64,000 nt of DNA from Clostridiales bacterium (lineage in GTDB: Bacteria > Bacillota > Clostridia > Christensenellales > Aristaeellaceae): NCBI GenBank assembly GCA_015056365.1, contig SVGM01000005.1, positions 1-64,000 of the forward strand, read 5' to 3'. Positions 7,507 to 15,802 of the stretch are shown piece by piece. Both the position numbers and the translations under genes were made by a program. The notes below the pieces were generated by a model. That model did not search any database and was not told where the DNA came from. It saw only the letters and a program-made list of their open reading frames with translations. Each line of letters begins with the position of its first letter. Within the stretch, counting starts at the first letter, position 1.

Positions 7507-7535
7507 TTGACGGAAATGGAAAACCTATGTAAAAT
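7507..7535 (+). promoter_or_regulatory. Sigma-A promoter of the transglutaminase-pilus operon
   Basis: TTGACG and TAAAAT are 17 nt apart, ending 50 nt upstream of the transglutaminase-like gene. I see no other promoter before the PilT terminator, so it probably drives all seven genes. Confidence 0.75.
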
Positions 7536-7585
7536 AGTAAAAGATGATCGCTTTTATCCTCTGCTGGAATCTGGAGGCGAATATA

Positions 7586-8425
7586 ATGAATGCAACGAAT
7601 GCAACATATTGCAAACGCCAGCGGCAGCTTGCTTTCTTGTTGGCTGTTGTGATGCTTTCATCTTTTATGGCGTGTGCCTTGTATGCTGCAGCGGAGTTGT
7701 TTTTACCCTCAGCGTCGGGTGACGTGGTTTTTGTCAAGGATGAACTTGTTGTGGACGCTAGCCACGCAGATCAGGGATATCTGATGGCAAAGCACGACCC
7801 TGATGACAAACCCCTGAAACTCCGTCTTACCTGTGGTAAAAACTCCATGACCTATGATTTCGAACCCAACGGAGCCTATGATATTTTTCCGCTCCAATTC
7901 GGCAACGGCAGCTACAAGCTGGAAGTGTTCCGCCAGGTGTCAGGCAAGCGCTACACACCTCTTTTGGAACAAACCATCGAGGTAGCGCTTGTCGATGAAA
8001 CACTGCCCTACCTCTACCCCAACCAGTATGTCAACTTCACCTGGGAATCCGAGGCTGTGCTGAAGTCCTACGAACTCTGCTACGGCGCAGATACAGAGAT
8101 GGAAAAATACCAAAGTATCTATCGCTATATGGCCAATCACATGATCTACGACTTTGACAAAGCCCGCAGCGTCAAGCAGGGATATCTTCCTGTGGTAGAT
8201 GACGTTCTGTTCGAGCAGAAGGGCATCTGCTTTGACCTGTCTGCTTTGATGGCGGCCATGCTCAGGGCACAGGGCATTCCTACCCAATTGGTCATTGGCT
8301 ATGCAGATAAGATCTATCATGCCTGGAATATGGTCTATCTGGACGGCCAGTGGATTTTGTGCGACATTACGTCCGATATTATGTGCATGGATGTTGGACG
8401 CTATACCACCGAACGCTTTTATTGA
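7586..8425 (+). CDS. Membrane-anchored transglutaminase-like protease-fold protein
   Basis: A 279-residue protein with one N-terminal membrane anchor (LAFLLAVVMLSSFMACALYAAAELF), an extracytoplasmic beta-rich region, and a C-terminal transglutaminase-like domain. The Cys-His-Asp triad is visible in KGICFDLSALMAAML, YHAWNMVY and WILCDITSD. GGAGG stands 8 nt before the chosen ATG; the earlier ATG in the track lies nearly on the promoter. It opens the pilus-like operon, so it may process or crosslink surface pilins, but that role is inferred from context only. Confidence 0.82.
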   Translation: MNATNATYCKRQRQLAFLLAVVMLSSFMACALYAAAELFLPSASGDVVFVKDELVVDASHADQGYLMAKHDPDDKPLKLRLTCGKNSMTYDFEPNGAYDIFPLQFGNGSYKLEVFRQVSGKRYTPLLEQTIEVALVDETLPYLYPNQYVNFTWESEAVLKSYELCYGADTEMEKYQSIYRYMANHMIYDFDKARSVKQGYLPVVDDVLFEQKGICFDLSALMAAMLRAQGIPTQLVIGYADKIYHAWNMVYLDGQWILCDITSDIMCMDVGRYTTERFY

Positions 8426-8458
8426 GCCGAATCCAAAAATAACAAGGAGGACACCGTC

Positions 8459-9496
8459 ATGAGCCGCAAACTACGTTTAAGCCACGAGGAGCTCTCTGTT
8501 CTGTGCGAACAGATCGCGCTTGTGCTCAGAGCCGGTCTGCCCATCCACGATGGCGTGGAAGCATTGTGCGAGAATTACAAAGGCACACGTTTCGAAAAGA
8601 ACTTTAATGATCTGAGCATCACGGTCATCGAGACCGGCAGCCTGTCCATGGGCTTCAAGAATGCTGAGGTCTTCCCGGATTATCTGATCTCCATGACCGA
8701 GATCGGCGAGAAAACCGGTGAACTGGACGGCATTATGGAAGAACTGTCCCTGTATTATGACCGTGAAGCTGCTAATCGCCGTTCCATCAAGAGCGCGCTG
8801 TTCTATCCCCTTCTGCTGATCATCATGATGGCGCTGCTCATCGGTGTGCTGGTCACGCAGGTGCTGCCCATTTTCGAGAATGTATACGGCAGCTTCGACT
8901 CTGGCTCCAGCGCGGGCTGGATGAACATGGCCGTCACCTTCGGCAAGGTAACGCTGATCGTTGCAGGCGTGCTGATCCTCGTTGTGATCCTCTTCCTGCT
9001 GGCCATCAAGCTGGACAGCAGCCAGCGTCTGCTGCAGTTCCTGCAGAATCTGCTGCCTCCGCTGAAGCGTCTGGAGCAAAAGCTGTCCGCCGCCCGTTTT
9101 GCCTCCACCCTTGGCATGATGCTGCGCAGCGGTTTCCCGCTGGACGAGAGCATGGATCTGGTGGAAAAGCTCTTTACCAACAAACGGCTGCGCCAGCGCG
9201 TGAGTCAGTGCCGCGAAAAGATGGAAGAAGGCGCGTCCTTCCCTGACGCGGTTGGCGAAACCGGCATCTTCGATCCGCTGCACTGTCGTATGATCTCCGT
9301 AGGTTTTCGTGCCGGTCAGACCGACCGGGTCATGAGCAAGCTGGCGGCCCTGTATGACGAGGAAGCCAACACCCAGATCGGACATCTGGTTTCCGTGATC
9401 GAGCCTTCCCTGGTGGCGCTTATGTCCATCATCATCGGCGCGATCCTGCTGTCCGTTATGCTGCCCCTGCTCAGCATTATGAGCAACATCGGCTAA
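8459..9496 (+). CDS. Type II secretion/type IV pilus inner-membrane platform protein (GspF/PilC family)
   Basis: This is the polytopic platform protein that couples the motor ATPase to pilin extrusion or retraction. It has 345 residues and the two characteristic tandem GspF domains, one with ALVLRAGLPIHDGVEAL and ITEIG-type EKTGELD motifs (about 10-135), the other with LMLRSGFPLDESMDLVEKLF and VGFRAGQTDRVMSKLAALYDEEANTQI (about 215-320). Three hydrophobic helices lie at about 115-150, 160-190 and the C-terminus. AAGGAGGA precedes the ATG. It belongs to the single-promoter pilus-like operon. Confidence 0.92.
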   Translation: MSRKLRLSHEELSVLCEQIALVLRAGLPIHDGVEALCENYKGTRFEKNFNDLSITVIETGSLSMGFKNAEVFPDYLISMTEIGEKTGELDGIMEELSLYYDREAANRRSIKSALFYPLLLIIMMALLIGVLVTQVLPIFENVYGSFDSGSSAGWMNMAVTFGKVTLIVAGVLILVVILFLLAIKLDSSQRLLQFLQNLLPPLKRLEQKLSAARFASTLGMMLRSGFPLDESMDLVEKLFTNKRLRQRVSQCREKMEEGASFPDAVGETGIFDPLHCRMISVGFRAGQTDRVMSKLAALYDEEANTQIGHLVSVIEPSLVALMSIIIGAILLSVMLPLLSIMSNIG

Positions 9497-9538
9497 GCTC
9501 ATGCTGACGCCCACCTCATTTGGAAAGGAGGAAAGACC

Positions 9539-9871
9539 GTGTCTGGAACCAAGCAACCTTCTCTGTGGAAAGGCCTTTTGCTCACGGTGCTGGTATTTGC
9601 GCTGCTTTTGAGCGTACTGGTGATCGGTACGTCCAGCGTGAACAACCGCAACGAAAGCCAGCAGATGGCTGAACTGGAAGCTTCCGTGCGCCGTGCTGCC
9701 GTGCTGTGCTATGCCGTTGAAGGCCGTTATCCGGAAAGCGCCGAAGAGCTTCGGCAGAACTACGGCCTTGCCTACGACCAAAACCGTTTCATTGTCCAGA
9801 TCGATGGTTTTGCTTCCAACCTCCTGCCGGATATCCGCATCCTGACCATCGGAGGTGAGGGAGATGAGTAA
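9539..9871 (+). CDS. Pilin-like small membrane protein (GspG-like C-terminal region)
   Basis: A 110-residue protein starting at GTG behind a strong AAAGGAGG. One N-terminal membrane helix (LLLTVLVFALLLSVLVIG) is followed by a helix and a short GspG-like globular region (AAVLCYAVEGRYPESAEELRQNYGLAYD). The YPESAEEL pattern is typical of pseudopilins. The classical prepilin cleavage motif (Gly before a Phe/Met and Glu at +5) is absent, so it may stay membrane anchored or be processed differently. It overlaps the next gene by 8 nt. Confidence 0.7.
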   Translation: MSGTKQPSLWKGLLLTVLVFALLLSVLVIGTSSVNNRNESQQMAELEASVRRAAVLCYAVEGRYPESAEELRQNYGLAYDQNRFIVQIDGFASNLLPDIRILTIGGEGDE

Positions 9872-10370
9872 GAACAAGTCCAGCAACGCCATTACCAACC
9901 ATGCCATCGGCGGTCTGTTTATTTTCTGCCTGATCGCCCTGTTTGCAGTGCTTGCCGTCACCCTGACGCTGACCGGCATGCGTGCCTATCAGAGCGTCAG
10001 CGAGGCTTCCACTGGCAACAGCGAAGCCCAGATCGTACTCAGCTACCTGCTCAACAAAGTCCACACCACGGATAGCTCCGCTGCCGTGACTGTCGTGGAG
10101 GATCAGGACCTGCAGTATCTCTGCCTGACCGAGATCCTCGAAGGCGACCCCTACGAAACACGCATTTACGCCTACGAAGGCTCCATGTGGGAGTATTTCT
10201 GCGAAGCGGACGAACCTTTTGAGCCTCAATACGGCGAATTGCTGGTAGACGTGGAAAAATTGGAGTTCCAGATGGAAACTCCCAGCCTTCTTTTCATTTC
10301 CGTTGCAATGCCTGACGGCGCAAACGAACAGCTGCACGTTGCGCTGCGTTCCCAGGAGGTGCTGCCATGA
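9864..10370 (+). CDS. DUF4860-like pilus-associated membrane protein
   Basis: A 168-residue protein with one N-terminal membrane helix (GGLFIFCLIALFAVLAVTLTLTGM) followed by an extracytoplasmic domain rich in acidic and aromatic residues (ICLTEIL-like LQYLCLTEILEGDPYETRIYAYEGSMWEYF). This matches the layout of DUF4860 proteins found next to clostridial pilus genes. I start at the ATG of MSKNKSS because GGAGGTGAGGGAG ends just before it; the track used an in-frame GTG. It overlaps both neighbours. No prepilin peptidase motif is visible. Confidence 0.7.
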   Translation: MSKNKSSNAITNHAIGGLFIFCLIALFAVLAVTLTLTGMRAYQSVSEASTGNSEAQIVLSYLLNKVHTTDSSAAVTVVEDQDLQYLCLTEILEGDPYETRIYAYEGSMWEYFCEADEPFEPQYGELLVDVEKLEFQMETPSLLFISVAMPDGANEQLHVALRSQEVLP

Positions 10371-10768
10371 AACGCTATCAGGGGAACATTCTGCTGATCG
10401 AACTGCTGATCGTCATTCTGTTTTTCTCCCTCTCTCAGGTGCTGATGGTGCGGGTATTTGCCTCCGCCCATCAAAAGTCTCAGGATAGCGGCATGCTTCG
10501 CCACGCCCTGCTTGCCTGCGAGAACGTAGCGGAACAGCTCAGCGTCAGCGAGGAGCCGGATACGGTGCTTCTCCGCCTTGGCTTCAATGGTCAGGATGGC
10601 CAGTATCTGTACTGCCATGAAAAAGGCTTCGATGTCTATGTGACCTGCCAGCGGCAGGATCAGCCCGGCGGCGAACTTCTCTCCTCCACCATCACTGCCC
10701 AAAAGGATGACGATGTGATCCTGACCCTTCCGGTTTCCTTCTATGTACAAAAGGAGGGAACGGTATGA
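10367..10768 (+). CDS. Divergent prepilin-like protein
   Basis: 133 residues. The N-terminus MKRYQGNILLIELLIVILFFSL resembles a type IV prepilin (short basic leader, Gly, hydrophobic helix with Glu), but Glu falls at +6 after the Gly rather than +5. The rest (residues 30-133) is a small extracytoplasmic domain with two Cys residues in the first half. Its ATGA overlap with the preceding gene indicates coupling. A minor pilin role is probable by position; the sequence evidence is the N-terminal helix only. Confidence 0.65.
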   Translation: MKRYQGNILLIELLIVILFFSLSQVLMVRVFASAHQKSQDSGMLRHALLACENVAEQLSVSEEPDTVLLRLGFNGQDGQYLYCHEKGFDVYVTCQRQDQPGGELLSSTITAQKDDDVILTLPVSFYVQKEGTV

Positions 10769-11229
10769 AAAAGCAAGATTCTCAACAGCGTGTTGGCGTG
10801 GGCGTATCGTCTGTGCTGATGATCCTGGTTGTGCTGGCCATGACGGCGCTTTCGCTGCTCGCTCTGGGCAGCGCCCGTTCCAACGAAAGCATGACCAGCC
10901 GCAACGCCACCGTGAGCGCGGCTTATTATGTGGCAGCGGATCAGGTGCAGCGCCAGCTTGCTGATATTGACGCAACCATTCTGCAGGGACAGGCGGAATC
11001 TGCTGACCTGTTCTGGTTTGAAATGCAGGGGTTGGACGAGGTCACCTGGACCGAGGAGGAAGTCGGCATTACCTTCCGTTTTTCTGTGGATACCGGCGAG
11101 GGACATACCATCGCTGTGACCGGTGTATTGACCGGAGAGGCTTTTCCCCGGTACAAGCTCACCGAACACCGGTTGATCAACAACGACGACCTGCAGGAAG
11201 ATACTTATCTTGTGTTGATGGGAGAGTAA
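10765..11229 (+). CDS. Pilus-associated membrane protein, PilX/GspK-like by position
   Basis: 154 residues with one N-terminal membrane helix (VSSVLMILVVLAMTALSLLALGSA), then NESMTSRNATVSAAYYVAADQVQRQL, a helix continuing outward as in PilX/GspK-type minor pilins (the Ser/Asn-rich turn then the AAYY helix). The C-terminal half is beta-rich. The classical cleavage Gly-x4-Glu is missing. It overlaps the previous gene by four bases and lies three bases before the ATPase gene. Confidence 0.65.
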   Translation: MKKQDSQQRVGVGVSSVLMILVVLAMTALSLLALGSARSNESMTSRNATVSAAYYVAADQVQRQLADIDATILQGQAESADLFWFEMQGLDEVTWTEEEVGITFRFSVDTGEGHTIAVTGVLTGEAFPRYKLTEHRLINNDDLQEDTYLVLMGE

Positions 11230-11232
11230 CGA

Positions 11233-12303
11233 ATGGAAGGTTTTGAAACGCTGGAGTATATCCTGAAAGAAACGCTGCTCAAAGGCGGCTCGGATATCTA
11301 TATCATCCCCGGTTCCCCGGTAACCACCAAGGTAAACGAAAAGTTCATCGCTTTAACCGAGGAAAAGCAAGGTACTGCCAACTGCACAAGCCTGATCGAA
11401 AAGATTTATCAGCTGGCAGGCAATCGGGACATCAACCGGCTGGCCGCTGAAGGCGACGATGACTTTTCCTTTGGTCTGGCGCACGTAGGCCGTTTCCGCT
11501 GCAATGCGTTCAAGCAAAGAGGCACCTTTGCCGCCGTCTTGCGCGCCGTGCCCTTTGAACTGCCCAACCCGGCCAATCTGGGCATTCCCAAGGCGGTCAT
11601 GGATCTGAGTTCCCGCCGCCACGGCATGGTGCTGGTCACCGGCCCCGCAGGCAGCGGTAAGAGCACCACGCTCAGCTGTATCATAGACCGCATCAACAAC
11701 GAAGCAGATGCTCACATCATCACACTGGAAGACCCCATTGAGTTCATTCATCCCCACAAGCGCTGCATCGTCACCCAGCGTGAAATCATGAACGACACGC
11801 AGACGTTTGCCCACGCGCTGCGCAGTGCCCTTCGTCAGGCGCCAGACGTGATCCTGCTGGGCGAAATGCGCGACTATGAGACCATTCAGACGGCGCTGAC
11901 CGCCGCCGAAACCGGTCACCTGCTGCTGTCCACTTTGCACACCGTAGGTGCCAGCAAAACCATTGACCGTATCGTGGACTCTTTCCCTGCTTCCCAGCAG
12001 GCGCAGGTTCGCATGCAGCTTTCGCTGGTGCTCAAAGCCGTGGTCAGCCAGCAGCTGATCCCCTCCGTCAACGGTGGTCTGGTCGCCGCCTTTGAAGTCA
12101 TGCTGGTGGACAACGCCATCGCCAACATGATCCGCGAAGGCAAGGTCCACCAGATGGACAACGTCATTTACGCCGGCGCCGCCCAGGGCATGACCACCAT
12201 GGACAATGACATTCTGCGGCTGTACCGTGCCGGTACCATCTCCAAGGAGAACGCGCTGATGTACGCCATCAACCAGGAACTGATGGCAAAGAAACTGAAC
12301 TAA
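11233..12303 (+). CDS. PilT-type hexameric secretion ATPase
   Basis: A 356-residue GspE/PilT-superfamily ATPase. It has an N-terminal domain (1 to about 100), Walker A GPAGSGKST, the Asp box TLEDPIEFIH, Walker B VILLGEMRD, a His box HLLLSTLHT and a C-terminal AAETGHLL...SQQLIPSVNGG region. The GEMRD and SQQL(I)P motifs are those of PilT rather than the longer PilB/GspE, and the length is PilT-like. It is the only motor ATPase in the operon, so it may power both directions of movement or partner with a distant PilB. Confidence 0.9.
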   Translation: MEGFETLEYILKETLLKGGSDIYIIPGSPVTTKVNEKFIALTEEKQGTANCTSLIEKIYQLAGNRDINRLAAEGDDDFSFGLAHVGRFRCNAFKQRGTFAAVLRAVPFELPNPANLGIPKAVMDLSSRRHGMVLVTGPAGSGKSTTLSCIIDRINNEADAHIITLEDPIEFIHPHKRCIVTQREIMNDTQTFAHALRSALRQAPDVILLGEMRDYETIQTALTAAETGHLLLSTLHTVGASKTIDRIVDSFPASQQAQVRMQLSLVLKAVVSQQLIPSVNGGLVAAFEVMLVDNAIANMIREGKVHQMDNVIYAGAAQGMTTMDNDILRLYRAGTISKENALMYAINQELMAKKLN

Positions 12304-12343
12304 ACGCAAAAAAGACCGCCAGGTGGTCGTTCATAAAACAGTG

Positions 12344-12387
12344 CAAGTCGTGACAGCATGCAATGCTGTCACGGCTTGCTTTTCTTT
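12344..12387 (+). terminator. Terminator of the pilus-like operon
   Basis: CAAGtCGTGACAGCAT pairs with ATGCTGTCACGgCTTG and is followed by CTTTTCTTT, 40 nt after the PilT stop. Confidence 0.82.
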
Positions 12388-12438
12388 GTGCTCCATGATA
12401 ATATCGCGAAGAATGTTGAAGTGATTGGGGGAGATTTT

Positions 12439-12984
12439 TTGACAAAAAATGACAATGCACATTCTGTCAGACTGGTTGAAAGCATAAGACGAAATGCAGG
12501 AAACGATGAAGCCAACAATTTTGAAGAAAAACTCCCACTGGCAAAAACTGCTGGTCTTGAGAAAAAATTCGAATGGGCGAAGAATGCTTGTGAATATCTT
12601 GAAGATCATTTTGACACCGAAACCGTGATAAGTATCAGGAAAGAATGTAGATGTAATGATGGCAAGTCAATCGCAAAAAAGATTTTGAAATATTTGAGTA
12701 AAGCAAATAGCATTAAACAGTTTGTAGAGACTTTTAATGCACATGAAACCTTTGCAATTCTGGAATACATATCAGAAAATAAGCTTTTATTCTGTTATCC
12801 TCAATGCTATTGCGCTTGTATAAAAAGAGTGCCGGCGGAAGTTTCAAAAACTTGGTGTTATTGTACATTGGGAAATGCGGAAGGAATTTTTCGAGAAGTC
12901 TTTAAGAGGGATGATATAAGAGTTACATTGCTTAAAAGCATAAAGACAGGTGGAGAGAAATGCGTGATCGAGGTGGAATGGTAA
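12439..12984 (+). CDS. AT-rich cysteine-containing orphan protein (DUF6144-like?)
   Basis: A 181-residue soluble protein from a TTG start, with GGGGGAG 5 nt upstream; the track's start lies inside the terminator. Cys residues cluster in ECRCNDG near the middle and in CYPQCYCACIKRVP and WCYCTLG in the last third, ending in KTGGEKCVIEVEW. The arrangement reminds me of DUF6144-type clostridial proteins, where a Cys-rich segment precedes such an ending, but I cannot verify this. Its A+T content is clearly higher than all neighbours, suggesting recent acquisition. A metal or heme role is possible but unproven. Confidence 0.7.
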   Translation: MTKNDNAHSVRLVESIRRNAGNDEANNFEEKLPLAKTAGLEKKFEWAKNACEYLEDHFDTETVISIRKECRCNDGKSIAKKILKYLSKANSIKQFVETFNAHETFAILEYISENKLLFCYPQCYCACIKRVPAEVSKTWCYCTLGNAEGIFREVFKRDDIRVTLLKSIKTGGEKCVIEVEW

Positions 12985-13184: not shown

Positions 13185-14132
13185 TCAGGCTTTGCCCGTG
13201 CCCAGCCTGCCGGGGTGCTTCATGAACCGGCTCAACCCATTCAGCGGCTCCTCTCCGGTCTCCGGCCAGGTTGGCTGGGGGGTGAGGGTTTCGCTGAGCA
13301 CCCGGACCACCTCCGCATCATCCGGACGGCTGGCAGGATCGGCGCTGAGCATACGCTGGATCATCTGCCGCAGCTCACGGGGCAGGCCGCCCGACAAAAC
13401 CGGCGTTTCTCCGTCCAGCACAGTTTCGTAAAGGTAGTGGTATTTGGCCGCATCAAATCCAGGCAATTCTCCCGTCCAGATGCGGTGGATCATTGCGCCG
13501 AATGCAAAGGTGTCCAGCGCCGTGGTCATCTCCACAGGCTGTCCGGTCATCCGCAGGAAAGCCTCCGGGGACAGATACACCGGATCGCCCTCCAAACCGC
13601 TTCCCTCTGGCGGAGGATCATCCACCAGAAAGCCGCTGTCCAGATCGATCAGACGTACCAGATAATCCATGCCGGCAGGCGCCAGCAGTACGTGTTCCGG
13701 TTTCAAATCCGCATGGACGATCCCTTGCAGATGCAGTCGCTGCAGGCACAGCGCCAGATCAAGCAGCACCTGTCTTTTCTGTTTTTCGGAAAGGCCGTCC
13801 GTATTCTCCCCTGTCCGGGTGGTGGATACCTCCTCGCTGGCAGCATAATAATGCCCTTCGCAGCGAAAAAAGTCCAGCACCGGCACCAGCGTATCCCCGA
13901 TCACGCAGCTCATGGCGGAATAGAGGCGCTGTTTGCGGCGTTCAAAACGTTTGCAGCGTTCCTTTTGCTTTTTCTGTATGGGCGTATCCGTTGCCGCCGG
14001 ATACACGGGAGAAAGAAACTGCTTGAGAAAAAAACGTTCCGTGCCCCTCATGGCAATACACCAGCGGGCGCTGCCGCTGCCCGCCGTTCTCATCTTTGTC
14101 AGCAGGCTATATTCGCCAATCCTGTCCGTCAT
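13185..14132 (-). CDS. Protein Ser/Thr kinase of the VWA/PP2C-linked (TerY-P-like) type
   Basis: A 315-residue soluble eukaryotic-like kinase domain without a membrane helix. Visible elements are the Lys of subdomain II (FFLKQF), a catalytic loop VHADLKPEHVLL (HxD present, but His replaces the usual Asn), a metal loop LIDLDSGF in place of DFG, and YLSPEAFL as the P+1 region. A long basic segment follows the Lys (PIQKKQKERCKRFERRKQR). The ATG chosen (MTDRIGEYSLL) has GGAGG 9 nt upstream and overlaps the PP2C end by 26 nt. It is last in a VWA-PP2C-kinase operon. Confidence 0.85.
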   Translation of the reverse strand: MTDRIGEYSLLTKMRTAGSGSARWCIAMRGTERFFLKQFLSPVYPAATDTPIQKKQKERCKRFERRKQRLYSAMSCVIGDTLVPVLDFFRCEGHYYAASEEVSTTRTGENTDGLSEKQKRQVLLDLALCLQRLHLQGIVHADLKPEHVLLAPAGMDYLVRLIDLDSGFLVDDPPPEGSGLEGDPVYLSPEAFLRMTGQPVEMTTALDTFAFGAMIHRIWTGELPGFDAAKYHYLYETVLDGETPVLSGGLPRELRQMIQRMLSADPASRPDDAEVVRVLSETLTPQPTWPETGEEPLNGLSRFMKHPGRLGTGKA

Positions 14133-15093
14133 GTTCCGTTTCCTCCATGCGGTTGTAGTCCTTGGCATATGCAAGCCAATAGCCTCTCACAGCTTCATGA
14201 TCCCGCTTTTTGCGTCTAACGGGCGTAATGAAAGCCCGCTTGAGCCGTTCGTGTCGAGGGGCGAAGTACTGCTTCATGGCGTCGTAATGATCAAAGCCAT
14301 AAGGGCAGCAAAGCAGGGTAGCGTCGTCCTGAACAACGCTGCGCAGCTGTGTCTCTACGCGTTTCTGCCAACGAGCTGAATCCTTTGCGCGCTGCATAGC
14401 GTCAAGCAGCAGCATCTCCAGCTCCATGGGGTTGGCGATGGCGCTGTATACGCCGTCTGTGGCGCAAATCAGCATCCCCTGCTTTGCCAGCGGAAAACGC
14501 CGCATATGCAGTTGCACAGGCTTATCCGCACTGAGGAAGTTGCTCAGGGGAAGATCCAGATACAGGCTGTCAAATGCGTCATGTTCGCCGCGCACGTCGT
14601 CCACGGTATGCTGATGCAGACCGTTTTCATCAAGGGTATAACCCCGGCTGTCCCCTGCCCAGATCATGCAGCAGGCAGGATGCTGCCCCTGTGCCTCTGC
14701 CATGGCAGCGCAAAGAGTGGTGGGCAATACGCGCTGCATGCTGCCCACGATGCGCACACCGGCATCTTCGCAGTACTTTTTGGCAAAGCTGGACAGAACT
14801 TCCTGAAAGTCCTGCTGGAGTTCTTCCAGCATCTGTTGACCCTGCGCCGCCGTTACCGGAACCTGCATCCTCTCCTCGGCCCAGTTTTGCATTGTACGTG
14901 CTGCCAAACGCGACGCCAGATACGCGCCTGTCCGGCCGTCGAGGGATTCATAGCGTCTGCTGCCCAGCCCGCCGCAGCCATCCGTAACGCACAGCAGGGT
15001 TCCGCCGGCCAATTCGCACATAGCAAAGCTGTCCTCCCCCTGCTCGGAGACGACAGCACATTGCACCACAATAGCTTCACCCAGCAGCGTCAA
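14107..15093 (-). CDS. PP2C-family protein phosphatase
   Basis: A 328-residue PPM/PP2C phosphatase. The metal-binding acidic residues are visible in EDSFAMCELAGGTLLCVTDGCGGLGS, WAGDSRGYTL, CATDGVYSAI and VVQDDATLLCC, in the correct order. A C-terminal extension of about 70 residues (RHERLKRAFITPVRRKKRDHEAVRGYW) is basic and outside the catalytic fold. I prefer a TTG start 5 nt after GGGAGG; a nearby downstream GTG is a weaker alternative and the track's ATG lies deep in the VWA gene. It presumably reverses phosphorylation by the adjacent kinase. Confidence 0.85.
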   Translation of the reverse strand: MTLLGEAIVVQCAVVSEQGEDSFAMCELAGGTLLCVTDGCGGLGSRRYESLDGRTGAYLASRLAARTMQNWAEERMQVPVTAAQGQQMLEELQQDFQEVLSSFAKKYCEDAGVRIVGSMQRVLPTTLCAAMAEAQGQHPACCMIWAGDSRGYTLDENGLHQHTVDDVRGEHDAFDSLYLDLPLSNFLSADKPVQLHMRRFPLAKQGMLICATDGVYSAIANPMELEMLLLDAMQRAKDSARWQKRVETQLRSVVQDDATLLCCPYGFDHYDAMKQYFAPRHERLKRAFITPVRRKKRDHEAVRGYWLAYAKDYNRMEETEHDGQDWRI

Positions 15094-15121
15094 CGCCTCC
15101 TCCCTGTGGGCGCATCCGCGC

Positions 15122-15802
15122 TCAGATGGTGTTGCATACAGCGTCCAACACCTGACGATACTCCACTTCCAGCAAGCCTTCGCTGACCGTCTGCACATGG
15201 ATCACCTGACCCCACTCGGAGGAAATGCGGCTCCATTCCGGCGCGTCGGGCGCAAAGATCAACAGACGCTTGGCGTTTTCATCCATACCTCCGCCCAGCT
15301 GCTCATCTTCCCACCAAAGGCTCAATTCATCAAAATCCTTGGCCATGCCTTCTGGATACCAGGGCGCGATCTTGCCGTGACCCAGCTCATGCGTGGGCGC
15401 GTCGGACCACACCACTATGATATGGCGTTTTTTGACGCCTTCCCGGGTCCAATCGCTGCGAATGGCATAGCCAAGCGCTTCCAGACCGTCTTCAGGAATG
15501 TCGCCGCCGCCCTTTGCTTCAATACCTGCCACACACTCCTGGAACATCTGCGCCTGCCCGGGCAACACAAAAAAGTCGCTGCTGAGCATCGCTTCTTCAC
15601 CGTCATTGATATAATCACGGAACGCAATCACGCGCACACGAAGCTTATCGATGGTCTTATGCTTTTTTTCCATTTCTGCTGCGATATCCCGGTAGAGATT
15701 CAGCGCATTTGTCTTGACAAAATCCAGCACATGGCGCATGCTTCCCGTAGCATCGATACAAAAAACCATATCCACATGATAGGTCAGTTGATAGTTCTGC
15801 AT
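15122..15802 (-). CDS. VWA (MIDAS) domain protein, TerY-like
   Basis: A 226-residue single von Willebrand factor A domain without signal peptide. The metal-ion-dependent adhesion site is intact: DMVFCIDATGSM at the N-terminus (DxTxS variant), the Thr-equivalent in the GGGDIPEDGLEAL loop, and VVWSDAPTHELGHG. AAAGGGG lies 7 nt before the chosen ATG. It heads an operon with a PP2C phosphatase and a kinase, the composition described for TerY-P triads of tellurite/stress systems. No TerC/TerD genes are in this window. Confidence 0.85.
   Translation of the reverse strand: MQNYQLTYHVDMVFCIDATGSMRHVLDFVKTNALNLYRDIAAEMEKKHKTIDKLRVRVIAFRDYINDGEEAMLSSDFFVLPGQAQMFQECVAGIEAKGGGDIPEDGLEALGYAIRSDWTREGVKKRHIIVVWSDAPTHELGHGKIAPWYPEGMAKDFDELSLWWEDEQLGGGMDENAKRLLIFAPDAPEWSRISSEWGQVIHVQTVSEGLLEVEYRQVLDAVCNTI

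Follow-up and report, generated by a model that had tools for sequence, protein, structure and literature searches.

The window analyzed here, 64,000 nucleotides of contig SVGM01000005.1 from a Clostridiales bacterium (assembly GCA_015056365.1), carries on its plus strand a seven-gene cassette that spans positions 7507–12387. The genome, designated G000, is 2.60 Mb in size and 87.9% complete. The genes encode a transglutaminase-like enzyme (TG), a platform protein (F), four pilin-like proteins (p1 to p4), and a PilT-type ATPase (T), in the order TG-F-p1-p2-p3-p4-T. Judged from their sequences, PilT, the GspF platform, four type IV pilin homologues without the prepilin cleavage motif, and a TG that is exported are one inherited unit in many Clostridia. 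The features of the cassette are as follows.

7507–7535, plus strand: promoter-like site TTGACG-17-TAAAAT, matching the consensus at 10 of 12 positions
7586–8425, plus strand: TG, transglutaminase-like enzyme of 279 amino acids (aa) (PF01841, E 9e-21; PF04473, E 1e-8)
8459–9496, plus strand: F, GspF/PilC-type platform of 345 aa with two T2SSF repeats (PF00482, E 2e-47)
9539–9871, plus strand: p1, pilin-like protein of 110 aa with a GTG start and a CYAxEGxYP motif, without a class III cleavage site
9864–10370, plus strand: p2, DUF4860 protein and GspJ-like minor pilin homologue of 168 aa (PF16152, E 4e-20)
10367–10768, plus strand: p3, pilin-like protein of 133 aa with Glu5 kept and Asn at –1
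10765–11229, plus strand: p4, GspK/PilX-like protein of 154 aa without Glu5 (by alignment and profile match)
11233–12303, plus strand: T, PilT-type ATPase of 356 aa (TIGR01420) with intact Walker A/B and AIRNLIRE-type motifs
12343–12387, plus strand: intrinsic terminator, a 17-pair hairpin plus T-rich tail (hairpin plus T run, 12343–12379)

The start of TG is ATG 7586, with GGAGG at 7573; another in-frame ATG lies upstream at 7544. Adjacent pilin genes (p1/p2, p2/p3, and p3/p4) share a few bases at their junctions, as expected where translation is coupled along an operon. The original prediction bounded the seven genes with one promoter and one terminator. Both sites are present, and no other terminator-like site in the region comes close in strength to the 12343–12379 hairpin, but promoter-like and terminator-like sites overall are no more frequent in the region than in shuffled sequences.

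The motor is of the PilT type. T scores 414.5 bits against the PilT/PilU model TIGR01420 (cut-off 319.1), and its nearest solved structures are PilTs (PDB 2ewv, E 9e-96). PilT is its best match; it falls below the cut-offs of the ComGA model (125.7 bits; cut-off 300) and of the TadA-family model (44 bits; cut-off 373), and it does not qualify as the GspE-type ATPase of type II secretion. Across homologues of T, the Walker A Lys and the Arg of the AIRNLIRE-type motif are each conserved at 100%. F scores 200.7 bits against the GspF equivalog model and does not reach its cut-off of 424. As predicted originally, the operon opens with the gene for a membrane-bound transglutaminase-like enzyme. TG has a transglutaminase core domain, with an additional match to DUF553, and the catalytic triad is nearly invariant in 118 relatives (Cys 99%, His 100%, Asp 99%); a lipobox-like motif occurs in 10 of 121 TG proteins. 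TG is, by sequence, an exported, membrane-anchored transglutaminase-like enzyme with a Cys-His-Asp triad. Ratios of nonsynonymous to synonymous substitution rates (dN/dS) relative to four close relatives range from 0.08 to 0.30 for six of the genes, and that of TG is 0.07 in the single computable comparison, synonymous sites being saturated in three of four. Wherever a ratio was obtained, it points to purifying selection on the cassette genes.

Gene order is strictly conserved, as was found when the seven genes were followed across Clostridia. A search with PilT in 60 relatives yielded 15 neighborhoods, and all 15 have the same genes in the same order, some being cut by contig ends or having a pilin below detection, even as identity falls to 54% for PilT and 28% for F. 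A search for DUF4860 matched 50 of 392 Clostridia genomes and none of 14 controls. Nineteen of 20 DUF4860 loci examined are cassettes, and the remaining one, L107, holds the operon of an ordinary type IV pilus. Among 100 further loci, 80 of them from named public genomes, the order TG-F-p1-p2-p3-p4-T is exact in 75; in most of the other 25, a contig end truncates the locus, TG is missing, or overlapping open reading frames (ORFs) make the order ambiguous. In total, the order was seen in more than 100 loci, which excludes chance, and in at least 13 sampled families of Clostridia (f1, f6, f10, f27, f32, f48, f72, f78, f82, f86, f90, f92, and f95). Named carriers are mainly metagenome-assembled genomes from ruminant and other guts, plus the cultured Caproiciproducens galactitolivorans YR-4, where the cassette is at locus L179. 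Genome G344 has three DUF4860 loci (L092, L129, and one on contig C88), two of which read as cassettes, and G331 has two DUF4860 matches.

The cassette PilTs also share a history of their own. When PilTs were placed in a tree with canonical clostridial PilTs as the root (quick search, with support from the Shimodaira–Hasegawa-like approximate likelihood ratio test only), all cassette PilTs form one clade with support of 99. Families f32 and f90 fall outside a large clade of motif-less cassettes (support 100), and it is to these two families that a canonical G|F[TS]L[IV]E site in p3 is confined (L099, L102, and L110–L117 in f32; L105 and L118 in f90). TG is absent beside the f32 cassettes and is downstream of T in f90. 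The f32 and f90 cassettes are possible ancestral forms, and the series formed by p3 and the PilT tree reads as a normal pilus set that lost its cleavage site.

The pilin-like proteins of the window are noncanonical in the way first described. The Gly-x4-Glu class III site is in none of p1 to p4; p3 reads G6-N-I-L-L-I-E12, placing Glu at +6 from Gly, and when aligned on this Glu its –1 residue is Asn. Glu5 is invariant in p3 (133 of 133), and position –1 is Asn in 84, among them relatives of the window, and Gly in 19 of these 133 proteins, with Ser, Arg, Lys, and others (Val, Pro, Thr) in the rest. Confident models of p1 and p2 show a helix-and-head architecture of the kind seen in pilins. AlphaFold2 predicts a 55-residue N-terminal helix and a small hairpin for p1 (predicted local distance difference test [pLDDT] 86.7), and a small head on a long N-terminal helix for p2 (pLDDT 89.8). 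Foldseek matches of p2 are the pseudopilins XcpW, EpsJ, and TTHA1219, with high probability and weak E-values. Profile searches of solved-structure sequences with p1 and p2 returned nothing useful.

Profiles of p1 to p4 do match canonical pilins. The ordinary pilus operon L107 (genome G422) has PilB, PilT, PilC, PilA, two pilins, PilM/N/O-like genes, two further pilins, and a PilD-like gene; identities were assigned from sequences, with PilM, PilN, and PilO assigned by place and kind. Each profile has its best match in L107 in a different pilin, none of them PilA, and the order of the four agrees with that of the cassette (p1, 43 bits; p2, 37 bits; p3, 47 bits; and p4, 49 bits, to a PilX-like gene). 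PilA is matched by p3 at 30 bits, below its best pilin match. Because of this correspondence, the cassette has the look of a pilus operon minus PilB, PilA, PilMNO, and PilD. The p1 to p4 proteins look like homologues of minor pilins, and an obvious major pilin would hence also be missing.

Partners that a pilus would need were searched for in G000. Peptidase_A24 (A24, prepilin peptidase), N_methyl prepilins, and a second T2SSF gene were not found there, and the same searches were positive in 12, 8, and 13 of 14 reference genomes, respectively. F is thus the sole T2SSF gene of G000; a Tad pilus has a TadB/TadC platform pair and an Flp pilin. The T2SSE search of G000 found neither PilB nor another extension ATPase and only one further gene over the cut-off. 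As a candidate TadA/VirB11 this gene was rejected; it is most like SpoIIIAA (255.8 bits, slightly below the cut-off of 281.3). The absence of PilB/GspE, prepilin peptidase, and a platform partner, first noted for the operon, therefore extends to the G000 assembly.

The pattern recurs in the lineage. A24 was found in none of the 16 cassette genomes of the window's order that have no separate pilus locus, G000 included. The one cassette genome of the order with such a locus, G031, has an A24 match (C65:6279-6605) on the same contig as that PilB-bearing locus, which has a PilT and a GspF of its own besides those of the cassette. Across the window's whole family, 21 genomes out of 131 gave an A24 match, and genus g16 accounts for 15 of these. 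Genome G178, of the same order, is a single contig (2,969,292 bp, 100% complete; locus L100) in which the cassette PilT is the sole T2SSE gene and A24 was not found; nor was A24 found in the one-contig genome G439. A strict link between Gly at –1 of p3 and A24 was considered and dropped. Genomes with a canonical p3 are mostly A24 positive, but three f32 drafts (G119, G227, and G319) have no match, so the association is a trend only.

A 2023 review (PMC10191384) names four proteins as common to all type IV filament systems: the pilins, the prepilin peptidase, the extension ATPase, and the platform. The window has the platform, and A24, the extension ATPase, and the class III signal were not found; the class III signal is present in the deep-branching f32 and f90 cassettes. 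Given these absences, the cassette is not classed as a type IV pilus, Com pilus, type II secretion system, or Tad pilus, although it resembles several of these. With the type IVa pilus, as in the clostridial pil operon L107, it shares homologues of PilT and PilC/GspF and a matching series of four pilins, but it is without PilB, PilMNO, PilD, a separate PilA, and class III sites, and has TG in addition. With the Com pilus (ComGA–ComGG, ComC), it shares one ATPase, one platform, several small pilins, and the absence of PilMNO, but it has a PilT-type motor, noncanonical pilins, and TG, and no peptidase. Com operons were reported in Bacillales and Lactobacillales only, within the survey of PMC3244431. 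The type II secretion pseudopilus (GspH-I-J-K tip, GspF) has a comparable GspI/J/K-like pilin set and suggests the idea of a short pseudopilus, but the cassette is without GspE or peptidase, and its motor is PilT. Archaeal type IV pili likewise have surface enzymes of the transglutaminase family tied to pilus loci: the peptidases arCOG02164, arCOG09555, and arCOG03450 are strongly linked to such loci, with role unknown. Archaea differ in that their prepilin peptidases are of the A24 type and PilT is absent (PMC4858521). The open-access literature searched, which left most preprints and subscription papers outside its reach, holds no description of a peptidase-free type IV system of this make-up, and no paper in it mentions DUF4860.

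By descent the cassette belongs to the type IV pilus lineage, and its products probably function much as a portion of such a pilus does. Its best reading is a derivative of type IV filaments built from minor-pilin homologues, PilT, and a platform, and the machine probably has the form of a short, membrane-anchored pseudopilus. We suggest that p1 to p4 remain uncleaved in the membrane. Uncleaved pilins keep hydrophilic leaders, which should make exit from the membrane hard and a long shaft unlikely. The four proteins would instead assemble, by way of the conserved Glu5 of p3 and the F platform, into a short heteromeric pseudopilus equivalent to the tip or priming complex of a pilus without its shaft; Glu5 may contact a neighboring subunit or F. 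For a set of minor-pilin homologues alone, such a PilT-moved pseudopilus is the simplest machine. PilT, as the only motor, would push or pull this complex through F in ATP-driven cycles, and the complex would present or work on a cell-wall substrate together with TG. Outside the cell and anchored, TG may act on peptides of the wall or on surface proteins, by crosslinking or by cutting them. Strict gene order, a PilT clade of its own, and the series from canonical to noncanonical pilins support one of the two possibilities raised originally, a machine of a separate kind whose one motor is of the PilT type. To this explanation as a whole, an uncleaved, PilT-driven pseudopilus of p1 to p4 that works with TG, we assign a probability of roughly 0.55. 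The broader proposition, that a widespread clostridial machine does permanently without prepilin peptidase, extension ATPase, and major pilin, as a PilT-worked piston with an extracellular TG-like enzyme, stands at about even odds.

Several observations weigh against the pseudopilus reading. PilA of L107 is also matched by p1, at 26 bits versus 43 for its best match, and p1 as a major subunit is conceivable. The one-to-one mapping of p1 to p4 was seen in L107 alone; twelve further stretches with canonical loci match partially. When the p1 and p2 structures are compared with pilins, the E-values are weak (0.02–0.8), and the matches of p1 are weaker still. A24 is present in 39 of 46 cassette genomes across the class, many of them outside the window's order and many also having PilB-like or Tad-like ATPases; the direct argument for peptidase independence thus covers the window's lineage only. 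Most of the genomes examined are drafts.

Of the alternatives, a true surface pilus survives best, though we consider it unlikely. Here, p1 would be the major subunit, p2 to p4 the tip, and PilT would both extend and retract. Consistent with this, p1 is the first and smallest pilin gene and encodes a long helix with a short head. Single bidirectional motors exist (CpaF alone in Tad; PilT aiding MSHA pili; PMC11300603, PMC9815625), and the Com pilus indicates that an ATPase and a platform can be enough at the membrane (PMC10191384). However, p1 is predicted to be uncleaved, with its leader kept and no Glu5, and is closer to a non-PilA pilin than to PilA. In neither G000 nor G178 was an extension-type ATPase found.

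A DNA-uptake machine, a clostridial counterpart of the Com pilus (ComGA-GG), is less probable again. One ATPase, one platform, and four to five pilins make a Com-like set, F matches ComGB (E 2e-35), p2 resembles TTHA1219, and most of the cassette-related genomes examined have ComEC. But ComEC is found with or without the cassette, so co-occurrence with ComEC/ComEA is uninformative, and genome G044 (98% complete) has a cassette and no match to ComEC or ComEA. The motor, moreover, is of the PilT rather than the ComGA type.

There is a slim chance that some unrelated protease processes the pilins, in which case the system would be a pilus with normal processing and a substitute peptidase. The Asn conserved at –1 of p3 among relatives of the window could be a new recognition site, but this position varies freely in other lineages. 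The cassette has no other protease, and the pilin leader is inside the cell, whereas TG is expected to work on the outside. Finally, we regard as hardly credible that the genes are parts of an ordinary type IV pilus with the remainder elsewhere in the genome: G031 does combine a cassette with a full pilus locus, but that locus has its separate PilT and GspF, while G000 shows none of the missing parts, N_methyl pilins included, and closed G178 agrees for ATPase and A24. The other possibility raised originally, an unusual pilus relying on remote genes, is contradicted within this lineage for the same reasons: no PilB, A24, or other pilus platform was found in G000, and no A24 in 15 other cassette genomes of the order. 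Neither a full pilus locus elsewhere in the G000 assembly nor, in the open-access literature, a known pilus type of this kind was found.

Neighboring genes suggest that the cassette is under cyclic di-GMP control in some relatives, where cyclic di-GMP enzymes are probably controllers of the machine. By raw count, 30 of 134 cassettes have a gene for a GGDEF diguanylate cyclase no more than 400 bp away; such genes occur on both sides and in both orientations, and few lie farther off. These neighbors occur in several families (e.g., L167:3665-4912, L095, L105, and L119). BTAD/SARP-type regulators adjoin cassettes in 19 loci, including L150:6710-7933, which has a weak GGDEF-like stretch, and Hpt proteins do so in nine. 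No GGDEF, BTAD, or Hpt gene was seen among the ORFs flanking the window's own cassette, and Rfam found no cyclic di-GMP riboswitch in the window or ten relatives. In G439 (L106), tetrahydrofolate (THF) and ZMP/ZTP riboswitches lie near the cassette (10941–11041 and 2368–2446) and are probably unrelated. In the window, a DUF6144 ORF directly follows the operon (12358–12984, plus strand); its listed start is inside the terminator hairpin, so its true start is probably later. Two adjacent ORFs at 13185–15198 on the minus strand read, from their translations only, like a Ser/Thr protein kinase and a PP2C-type phosphatase.

Whole genomes, a closed one among them, carry the cassette and lack two of the four core proteins of type IV filaments, yet selection keeps its motor, platform, Glu5, and gene order. 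Surveys keyed to PilB (PMC3244431) or to the major pilin (PMC6668835) are expected to overlook it. DUF4860 gains a likely role, and what PilT alone can do becomes testable. If the proposed reading is true, pilin cleavage and a PilB-type motor would be dispensable for a working relative of type IV filaments.

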